Assembly (NCBI GenBank): GCA_012964825.1
Contig: DTTI01000073.1
Span: 1-64,000 of the forward strand
Direction: 5' to 3'
Source: Candidatus Neomarinimicrobiota bacterium
GTDB taxonomy: Bacteria; Fidelibacterota; Marinisomatia; Marinisomatales; S15-B10
Length of the DNA stretch: 64,000 bases
This document shows positions 27,314 to 29,651 of this stretch, one piece after another; positions within the stretch are counted from its first letter, which is position 1; the number at the start of each line of letters is the position of its first letter. The notes under the pieces were generated by a model, which was not told the origin of the DNA, searched no databases, and saw only the letters and a program-made list of their open reading frames with translations. The position numbers and the translations under genes are program-made.

Positions 27314-28084
27314 TTAAATAATCCCGCCACCCAGCGCCACGGAGACCAGAATCAAACCAATCCCAACGATCTTTCGGATTTGATCCATGGTCACTTTTTT
27401 TAGAACTCTCTGACCGATAAAGACACCAAGAAACGCCGCCGCACACGCCGCGCCCATGAGTGCCATATTCTCCCCGCTGATGGATGAAAGATTTACACCG
27501 TAAACAGAGATACGTGTAATGTCAACAAGGCAAGCGATGGTTACACCCGTCCCAATGAACGCTTTTTTGCTCAATCCGGAACTGGCCAGGAAAGCACTCC
27601 GCATGGCGCCCTGATGCCCGGAAAGCCCGCCAAAAAATCCACTCACCAGTCCGCCCACAGGTAGGAATTTGGGACCAAACTGGAGATTCTTATTTTGTGG
27701 CAAGAGATCAAAAAGTGCAAAGAAGAATATCAGAACGGACATGGTGAAATTTACGGGTAAAATGACCATTTGGTAGCCCGCCAATGAATAGGACAAAAGA
27801 GGGGGCTGTTCAGCAAGTTTCACCAAAAGTTTCGCTCCGCCGTAAGCAGCCACAATAGCGATAAACCCAAACTTTGTTAGAACATCAATTTTGCAATGGC
27901 GACCGAAGAGCGTCAGTTTTAGCAAGTTGTTCGCCAAGTGGACAACAGCAGTGGCCGCCACGGCGGCTTGCGGAGGAAAGAGAAGAATCATAGCTGGTAA
28001 TAGGAGAGTACCTAGGCCAAAACCTGAAAAAAGTGTCAGCCCGGAGGCGACAAAAGCAACAAGCGCAACCAGAAAGTAGTCCAA
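27314..28084 (-). CDS. TSUP (TauE/SafE) family membrane permease
   Basis: A 256-residue membrane protein with about eight helices and the inverted repeat of the family: ASGLTLFSGFGLGTLLLPAM in the first half and LVSGFFGGLSGHQGAMRSAF in the second. Relatives move organosulfonates, sulfite, thiosulfate or sulfoacetate. It starts 2 bp after the arsC-like gene and precedes the dipeptidase by 28 bp, so the three are probably one transcript. The pairing with a redox protein of the arsenate-reductase fold suggests a sulfur- or oxyanion-linked job, which is inference. Confidence 0.85.
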   Translation of the reverse strand: MDYFLVALVAFVASGLTLFSGFGLGTLLLPAMILLFPPQAAVAATAVVHLANNLLKLTLFGRHCKIDVLTKFGFIAIVAAYGGAKLLVKLAEQPPLLSYSLAGYQMVILPVNFTMSVLIFFFALFDLLPQNKNLQFGPKFLPVGGLVSGFFGGLSGHQGAMRSAFLASSGLSKKAFIGTGVTIACLVDITRISVYGVNLSSISGENMALMGAACAAAFLGVFIGQRVLKKVTMDQIRKIVGIGLILVSVALGGGII

Positions 28085-28086
28085 AG

Positions 28087-28440
28087 CTATTTTAACAGTT
28101 CAAGGACCTTTTCCGGAGGCCGACCCAGCACTGCCCGCCGGCCAGTTACAGCAATGGGGCGCTCCATCAGTTTGGGGTGCTTCGCCATTGCGCTGAACAG
28201 GATGTCATCATCCTCAAGGGACTTTTTCATGTTGAGCGTCTTAAACTCGGCCTCGCCTTTTCGGATGAACTGATTTGGTCTGAGACCCATCATTCCTGCC
28301 AGGGATCGTAGTGTCGATTCATCGGCGGGATTCTTTAAATATTCGATGATCTTCGGTTCAACCCCGTTACCTCTGAGAAGCTGCACGGCTTCCCGGCTTT
28401 TTCGTCAACGGGGATTGTGATAAAGTGTGATCTTACTCAT
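28087..28440 (-). CDS. arsC: ArsC-family arsenate reductase with in-frame UGA at the catalytic Cys12 (probable selenoprotein)
   Basis: Read from the ATG at 28440, the frame gives 117 residues with one internal TGA at codon 12 (28407-28405): SKITLYHNPR-[UGA]-RKSREAV. In ArsC of the glutaredoxin-coupled class the same place is the catalytic Cys12. The three arginines that bind the oxyanion in plasmid R773 ArsC are here at exactly 60 (FIRKGEAEF), 94 (MERPIAV) and 107 (LGRPPEKV). An AAGGAG ribosome-binding site lies 9 nt before the ATG, whereas the only downstream start (GTG, 28386) has none and would give a protein with no catalytic residue. A SECIS-like hairpin follows the UGA. I therefore read selenocysteine; a nonsense mutation or base error is the alternative. 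First gene of an operon with the TSUP permease, dipeptidase and pruA. Confidence 0.78.
28375..28394 (-). promoter_or_regulatory. Putative bacterial SECIS element in arsC
   Basis: On the mRNA, GGGAAGC (11-17 nt after the UGA) pairs with GCUUCUC (24-30 nt after) to form a 7-bp stem with one G-U pair, closing a 6-nt loop CGUGCA. The second loop base is G, and the loop begins 18 nt after the UGA. The conserved G in the first two loop bases and a UGA-to-loop distance of about 16-37 nt are the known features of bacterial SECIS elements read by SelB. Confidence 0.65.
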
Positions 28441-28531
28441 CAGTGGAAACTCCTTATAAAGTTTGTCATTTTTTCCTTGTCCAATTTAATGCTCAAGCTA
28501 GACCCCACCGATTCTAATCTCTCTATTATGA

Positions 28532-28562
28532 TTGATTTAGACAGAACTTGTAGGTAATTTTG
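28532..28562 (+). promoter_or_regulatory. Promoter of the mreBCD-mrdA-rodA operon
   Basis: TTG (28532-28534), 20 nt, then TAATTTTG (28555-28562), an exact match to the Bacteroidetes-type -33 TTG / -7 TAnnTTTG pattern. It can also be read as TTGATT-N17-TAATTT. It is about 60 bp before the mreB start, in the divergent gap shared with arsC. The same arrangement occurs before hrcA. Confidence 0.55.
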
Positions 28563-28622
28563 AATCTCCGCGATTAATCCGAGGAGACCACTTTACAGAA
28601 CATTCATCTTTCGAGTGAGCAG

Positions 28623-29651
28623 GTGAGTATAGTCAAGAATGGTATAGGTTCGGCAGGCTGGGTATCCGGCGACATAGCTATAGACTTAGGAACGGCCAAC
28701 ACTTTGATTTGGGTTCGTTCCAAGGGTATCATCATTAATGAACCTTCCATCATTGCAAGAAACATAAATGACGGATCCGTTCTGGCTGTAGGCAAAGAGG
28801 CCAGCTTGATGGTTGGGAAGACACACCGGGATATTGAAACCATCTGTCCTCTCAAGGATGGTGTTATTGCAGACTTTGAAGCGACAGATGGGATGCTCCT
28901 CGGTTTTGTGAAGAAAATCAATTTCAGTCCCATTGCACGGTTCAAGATGGTGATCTGCGTGCCGAGCGGTGTAACGGGGGTAGAGCGAAAGGCGGTGCGG
29001 GATTCTGCTGAGCGCGCAAACGGAAAAGAAGTTTACCTTATCGAAGAGCCGGTGGCTGCTGCGATAGGAATCGGAATAGACATTTCCCGACCGGTGGGGA
29101 ATATGATTGTAGATATTGGCGGTGGCACCTCCGAGATCGCGGTCATCGCTCTCAATGGGGTAGTAACCAAAGAGACGATCAAGATCGCCGGCCACGAAAT
29201 GGATGAAGCTATTGTTCAGTGGTTCCGCAATGAGCACAAACTTGACGTTGGTGAACCAACGGCTGAGAAGATCAAGATAAAAGTCGGCAGCGCAATGCGA
29301 ATGGATGAGACGCCTATCCAGATAAGGGGGCGGGACTTGGTTTCAGGTATCCCCAAAACGGTTGAAGTCTCCTCCGACGAGATCCGTCAAGCTTTGAAGG
29401 ATTGTGTTACTCAGATCGTCGATGTAATCAAAAGAGCACTTGAAAAGACACCCCCCGAGCTCGCCGTTGATATCCTTGAAAGGGGTATTATTCTTACCGG
29501 TGGCGGTTCAATGCTTAAAGGGCTTGATCAGAATATCAGGGAGAGAACAAATCTTCCGGCAAACTTATCTGAACGTCCCCTCACAGACGTGGTGAGAGGC
29601 ACCGGTATGGTTTTATCCGATATTAAGAAGTACACAGATGTGCTTTTGTAG
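28623..29651 (+). CDS. mreB: Rod shape-determining protein MreB
   Basis: Actin-like ATPase forming membrane-bound filaments that direct lateral wall growth. The 342-residue protein has DIAIDLGTANTLIW (phosphate 1), the GGTSEIAVIALNGVV phosphate-2 region and the LTGGGSMLKGLDQNI adenosine motif, with VPSGVTGVERKAVRDSAERA between. The start is GTG with a weak ribosome-binding site; the sequence before DIAIDLG is about 17 residues, slightly long for MreB. First of a complete elongasome operon. Confidence 0.95.
   Translation: MSIVKNGIGSAGWVSGDIAIDLGTANTLIWVRSKGIIINEPSIIARNINDGSVLAVGKEASLMVGKTHRDIETICPLKDGVIADFEATDGMLLGFVKKINFSPIARFKMVICVPSGVTGVERKAVRDSAERANGKEVYLIEEPVAAAIGIGIDISRPVGNMIVDIGGGTSEIAVIALNGVVTKETIKIAGHEMDEAIVQWFRNEHKLDVGEPTAEKIKIKVGSAMRMDETPIQIRGRDLVSGIPKTVEVSSDEIRQALKDCVTQIVDVIKRALEKTPPELAVDILERGIILTGGGSMLKGLDQNIRERTNLPANLSERPLTDVVRGTGMVLSDIKKYTDVLL

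Follow-up and report, generated by a model that had tools for sequence, protein, structure and literature searches.

The window analysed here, 64,000 nucleotides of Candidatus Neomarinimicrobiota bacterium, carries an ArsC-type reading frame that is interrupted by a single TGA. The question raised by this locus is whether the codon is read as selenocysteine (Sec), is the mark of a dead or misread gene, or ends translation, and what the resulting protein would do. As judged from comparative sequence analysis, the gene almost certainly encodes a functional selenoprotein that belongs to the ArsC family (COG1393 / TIGR00014, UxxS), hereafter Sec-ArsC.

The ArsC reading frame and its in-frame UGA

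The elements of the gene are as follows.

28087-28440, minus strand: Sec-ArsC coding sequence, 117 residues and a TAG stop (translation; TIGR00014 and Pfam ArsC matches; AlphaFold fold)
28405-28407, minus strand: in-frame UGA at codon 12, putative selenocysteine (TGA in 42 relatives including the own genome, Cys in others)
28450-28455, minus strand: Shine-Dalgarno sequence AAGGAG, 9 nt upstream of the ATG at 28440

Translation from 28440 to 28087 returned a protein of 117 residues, MSKITLYHNPRU12RKSRE...LELLK*, in which the UxxS motif is U12-R-K-S15 and cysteine is absent. The TGA at codon 12 (28407-28405) was the only defect of the frame. A second open frame of 99 amino acids starts downstream at GTG 28386 and excludes the active residue. 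These results bear out the earlier note, which had described a 117-residue ArsC frame with one TGA and no further defect, an AAGGAG site ahead of the ATG at 28440, and a GTG at 28386 that lacks such a site and would yield a product without its active residue.

Selection on the two sides of the UGA was evaluated against close relatives. In the comparison with the sister species locus L006, codons 13-116 showed a pN of 0.06 and a pS of 0.34, and the codons after the TGA showed a pN of 0.15 and a pS of 0.72 with respect to L008, while codons 1-11 carried no non-synonymous change in comparison with two sister species. This pattern indicates purifying selection on both flanks of the UGA.

Codon 12 in the order

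Homologues were searched in 101 genomes, and an ArsC homologue was detected in 51 genomes of the order. The ArsC frame contained exactly one TGA in 42 of these 51 genomes and was free of TGA in the other nine. In all 42 interrupted frames the TGA occupied codon 12, whereas eight of the nine TGA-free homologues showed TGC or TGT at this codon and the remaining one (G005) was truncated by the contig end. Every homologue that reaches codon 12 thus has either Cys or UGA there, which is the pattern that the earlier note had proposed to look for in related genomes.

These data weigh on the idea of a pseudogene or a sequencing error, in which the TGA would be a dead stop or a miscalled TGC or TGT. 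The codon is indeed one base away from both cysteine codons, and a metagenome-assembled genome (MAG) can carry errors. However, 42 independent genomes share this TGA at codon 12, and their frames contain no further stop; moreover, pN/pS is well below 1 after the TGA and the covarying hairpin described below is confined to the TGA versions. We consider this explanation very improbable.

A tree of the ArsC proteins (116 columns, position 12 masked) required at least three changes between Sec and Cys, and five among the four classes of sequence, with many forks unresolved and gains and losses left undecided by the tree. Among the genomes with a Cys-ArsC, five (G010, G014, G027, G048 and G069) retain both selA and selB, and the cysteine in these genomes can therefore not be put down to a lost Sec pathway. 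Sec and Cys versions of ArsC appear to interchange while the Sec pathway stays.

Two further homologues were observed. In G008, a genome of the same family that contains selB, the same site beside mreB is occupied by a divergent ArsC that has Cys (TGT) and the motif C-K-T (L145), possibly an in-place replacement of the Sec form. The ArsC of L064, on a contig of an uncultured Flavobacteriaceae MAG, groups with good support with the Neomarinimicrobiota Cys versions (L143), suggesting horizontal transfer or a misbinned contig.

Family membership, catalytic residues and predicted fold

Sec-ArsC scored 126.5 bits against the TIGR00014 equivalog model (cut-off 106.05) and 64.6 bits against Pfam ArsC PF03960 (cut-off 24). 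Its alignment to the plasmid R773 ArsC ran from 1-116 on 1-116 with no gap, and the R773 numbering is therefore valid for U12, R60, R94 and R107. The columns of position 12 and of the three arginines were invariant in an alignment of 28 proteins, in which U is displayed as C. The assignment of codon 12 to the catalytic Cys12 site of R773 ArsC, with arginines 60, 94 and 107 in register, as the earlier note had it, is confirmed by the ungapped alignment.

An AlphaFold model of Sec-ArsC built from 28 relatives showed a pLDDT of 95.4 and a TM score of 0.92 both to the Vibrio cholerae ArsC structure 3f0i and to R773 ArsC (1i9d), and Sec-ArsC is accordingly modelled with the thioredoxin-like fold of the ArsC family. 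R773 ArsC (PDB 1i9d, 1jzw) thus resembles Sec-ArsC in the ungapped length, the catalytic position 12, the three arginines and the fold. It differs in having Cys where Sec-ArsC has Sec, in an identity of about 38% and in its motif, HNPACGTSR as opposed to HNPRU-x-KSR. The best match by sequence and fold was to ArsC proteins of the YfgD type (3f0i of V. cholerae and 3rdw of Yersinia pestis). They share with Sec-ArsC the motif HNPxC-S-KSRE and a short C-terminus, but have Cys in place of Sec. The closest structural match was 3f0i (45% identity), which presumably corresponds to vc2165 of V. cholerae.

Selenocysteine machinery of the host

The genome of the host is 97.6% complete. It contains selA and selB as adjacent genes, a selD that scored 404 bits, above the cut-off, and a tRNA-Sec above the Rfam cut-off with the anticodon TCA (tRNA-Sec(UCA)). 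The set of genes that the earlier note had asked for in the same genome, selA, selB, selC and selD, was thus recovered in full. The selD gene (C28:53031-53957) has an in-frame TGA of its own, followed about 32 nt downstream by a long hairpin, CUGGCUCAG-GUU-CUGAGCCAG; the host SelD is probably itself a Sec-containing protein, a known kind.

Among the 42 genomes with Sec-ArsC, 37 showed a selB match and two of the remaining five a selA match. Matches to both SelB and SelA were absent from G002, G052 and G085, which are fragmented MAGs, and the absences of SelB and SelA are most simply explained as gaps in MAGs.

Read-through of a UGA in the ArsC frame would also be expected if UGA were reassigned genome-wide to Trp or Gly instead of Sec. 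However, TGA terminates 24 of the 48 long non-overlapping open reading frames of the window, the two apparent long read-throughs resemble same-frame tandem genes, and no conserved protein interrupted by a TGA without a SECIS element was seen in the window. Elsewhere in the window UGA is an ordinary stop. In addition, the homologues carry Cys at codon 12 and not Trp or Gly. Reassignment is the least probable of the explanations considered, to be given almost no weight.

A covarying SECIS-type hairpin downstream of the UGA

A candidate SECIS element was located by comparison across 25 relatives, in the place predicted by the earlier note.

28375-28394, minus strand: SECIS hairpin, GGGAAGC (28394-28388), loop CGUGCA (28387-28382), GCUUCUC (28381-28375)

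In this form, referred to as class A, 17 nt separate the UGA from the loop. The published bSECIS criteria (PMC13188914) specify a loop of 3-9 nt, a stem of 4-16 bp, a G in the first two loop positions, a spacing of 16-37 nt and an MFE of at most -7.5 kcal/mol. The class A element lies within all four of the published constraints, having a loop of 6 nt, a stem of 7 bp, a spacing of 17 nt and an energy of -8.0 kcal/mol, and its loop reads C-G-U, with G and then U at positions 2-3.

The inner five pairs were formed in each of the 25 sequences, and pairs 17-30 (A-U/G-C) and 19-28 (G-C/U-A) showed compensatory changes. Pairing reached 91.4%, compared with 31-68% when the partners were slid, and covariation exceeded 500 of 500 shuffles and every slid control; two measures, both-sided pair changes and further pair types, did not exceed the shuffles. 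The string CCGUG was invariant in the 25 relatives. The third bases of the fourfold-degenerate codons 18 and 19 had zero entropy (25/25), whereas the twelve other fourfold columns tested ranged from 0.95 to 1.98 bits, and at codon 18 the third base was fixed even though the residue is Ala in 22 sequences and Ser in three. The hairpin was absent from the Cys homologues.

When a single 61-nt sequence that spans the UGA and continues past it was folded, another structure was preferred (z -0.43) and no SECIS signal emerged; the support for the element therefore comes from comparison and not from energy. A scan of positions 27900-28700 against Rfam gave chance-level matches only, and a search of the host genome with the class A model returned no second such element, the next best hit having an E value of 0.8.

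The hairpin also bears on the possibility that translation truly terminates at codon 12 and that a functional N-truncated protein starts from GTG 28386, for which the open 99-residue frame could be cited. The GTG has no Shine-Dalgarno sequence and falls within the invariant loop of the hairpin, where SelB accounts for the constraint. Moreover, codons 1-11, including YHNPR, are conserved, and relatives of the class B described below have Thr-Leu or Ala-Leu codons at this place and no GTG. Such a restart is, in our estimate, as improbable as a pseudogene. Sec insertion at codon 12 is instead strongly supported, because of the conserved TGA, the sel genes, the covarying hairpin and the frozen fourfold sites.

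Translation of Sec-ArsC would start at ATG 28440, and the hairpin 10-30 nt downstream of UGA12, with its apical C-G-U-G loop beginning at 18 nt, would recruit SelB with Sec-tRNA(Sec), so that selenocysteine takes the place of the family's catalytic cysteine. By analogy with the family, the Sec12 selenolate, which sits where helix 1 begins and is ringed by R60, R94 and R107, would make the first attack on an oxyanion or an oxidised substrate with the help of these arginines. Since the protein has no cysteine, reduction of the selenium intermediate would have to come from an external thiol or redoxin.

Second and third placements of the hairpin

The class A hairpin is missing from sixteen relatives, most of which belong to family f8; these show a different one (class B), with a CGUGA loop located 30 nt after the UGA. 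In class B 99.1% of the cells pair and both-sided changes occur in four pairs; the best slid control (+3) reached a similar covariation score but a pairing of just 81%. The published limit of -7.5 kcal/mol is not reached by several of the class B hairpins. The loops of both classes begin with CGUG. In L140 the hairpin took a third form, its loop reading GGUU. The placements at 17 nt and 30 nt set L020, L022, L023, L025-L033, L131-L133 and L141 apart from L005-L013 and others.

One Sec codon served by differently placed hairpins, with Cys versions interspersed in genomes that retain selA and selB, may reflect relocation of the SECIS element or repeated gain and loss of Sec, in an enzyme with a substrate other than arsenate; we regard this as a serious possibility, at slightly less than even weight.

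Gene neighbourhood and substrate

The genes flanking Sec-ArsC are the following.

27314-28084, minus strand: TauE/SafE-family permease gene (Pfam TauE, 75.5 bits; synteny)
28623-29651, plus strand: mreB, divergent (synteny; a conserved neighbour, not functionally tied)

The permease gene begins 2 nt past the ArsC stop and is a probable operon partner of Sec-ArsC. The adjacency is kept in families f1 and f5 and is missing in the sister species G001 and G002, and because these two lack TauE there the functional link is weak. Outside f1 and f5, at L016, L017, L021, L024, L031, L034 and L127, the gene is often near a gene for a nitroreductase-like protein or for a product containing VTGGTFDK..., which looks asparaginase-like by eye.

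Unlike R773 ArsC, Sec-ArsC stands outside any ars operon, its neighbours being TauE, peptidase M19 and mreBCD. Searches of the host genome covered the arsenite exporters Acr3 and ArsB (TIGR00832, TIGR00935) and, for glutathione synthesis, GshB (TIGR01380) and GshF (TIGR01435), and returned no match to any of these four. For bacillithiol, the BshA matches were below the threshold and glycosyltransferase-like. The missing arsenic-efflux genes call the label "arsenate reductase" into question.

We considered a reading in which Sec is inserted but the substrate is not arsenate, the protein being a thiol/selenol oxidoreductase similar to YfgD that may be connected, in f1 and f5, with the sulfur-compound permease TauE/SafE; towards this reading we lean slightly. 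It is favoured by the lack of a match to Acr3, ArsB, GshB or GshF and of a BshA above the cut-off in a 97.6% complete genome, by the ArsC-TauE gene order in f1 and f5 and by the closest structural match being the V. cholerae protein. The V. cholerae vc2165 protein conserves the catalytic Cys and Arg residues, yet makes no arsenite, As(III), in vivo, and is dispensable for arsenate resistance, its loss giving no arsenate phenotype (PMC9601151). Against it, Sec-ArsC exceeds the TIGR00014 equivalog cut-off and keeps all four R773 catalytic positions, and neither in the two sister species nor outside f1 and f5 does TauE lie beside the gene. Arsenate as the substrate of Sec-ArsC is possible but not favoured by the context, and "arsenate reductase" is used here as a family name only. 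The earlier note had proposed a Sec arsenate (or other oxyanion) reductase: its selenocysteine stands, its arsenate chemistry does not find support in the genes searched or in vc2165, and the hedge "or other oxyanion" is needed for this reason.

Relation to known selenoproteins and significance

The family is not new, since a 2005 study of the Sargasso Sea introduced the UxxS arsenate reductase as a selenoprotein family (14 sequences, PMC1088965) and it was found again in the Global Ocean Sampling data in 2008 (77 sequences, PMC2398784). A review of 2026 places it under TIGR00014 and describes almost all proteins of this sort as largely uncharacterised in function (PMC13188914); as 'ArsC 1' UxxS it is filed under COG1393 (PMC9312934). 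The mention in the earlier note of Sec-ArsC sequences from marine metagenomes was therefore correct. The Sec 'ArsC 1' proteins share with Sec-ArsC the family, UxxS at the catalytic site, a marine origin and a SECIS element just past the UGA, but they are unassigned metagenome reads, whereas the present genes belong to Neomarinimicrobiota genomes with Sec machinery and show two SECIS placements. The 2005 Sargasso sequences and MBT3519430.1 are likened to Sec-ArsC by description. A second Sec-containing ArsC-like family, UxxC, is described by the models cd03032 (PMC2398784) and NF041106 (PMC13188914), while Sec-ArsC is UxxS, matches TIGR00014 and is cysteine-free.

Neither a Neomarinimicrobiota host nor two SECIS placements were found in the main text of the Sec-ArsC papers cited above. 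A search for literature on Neomarinimicrobiota selenoproteins found none, the Marinimicrobia matches concerning other organisms by title.

A gene caller that treats TGA as a stop would begin this gene at GTG 28386 and lose its active site, which may affect up to 42 genomes of the order. The Sec-ArsC family, represented mainly by marine metagenome reads, gains a named lineage in which the Sec machinery is complete and a gene that can be used in experiments. The two SECIS placements show how an RNA signal constrained by coding can occupy different spots of one gene.
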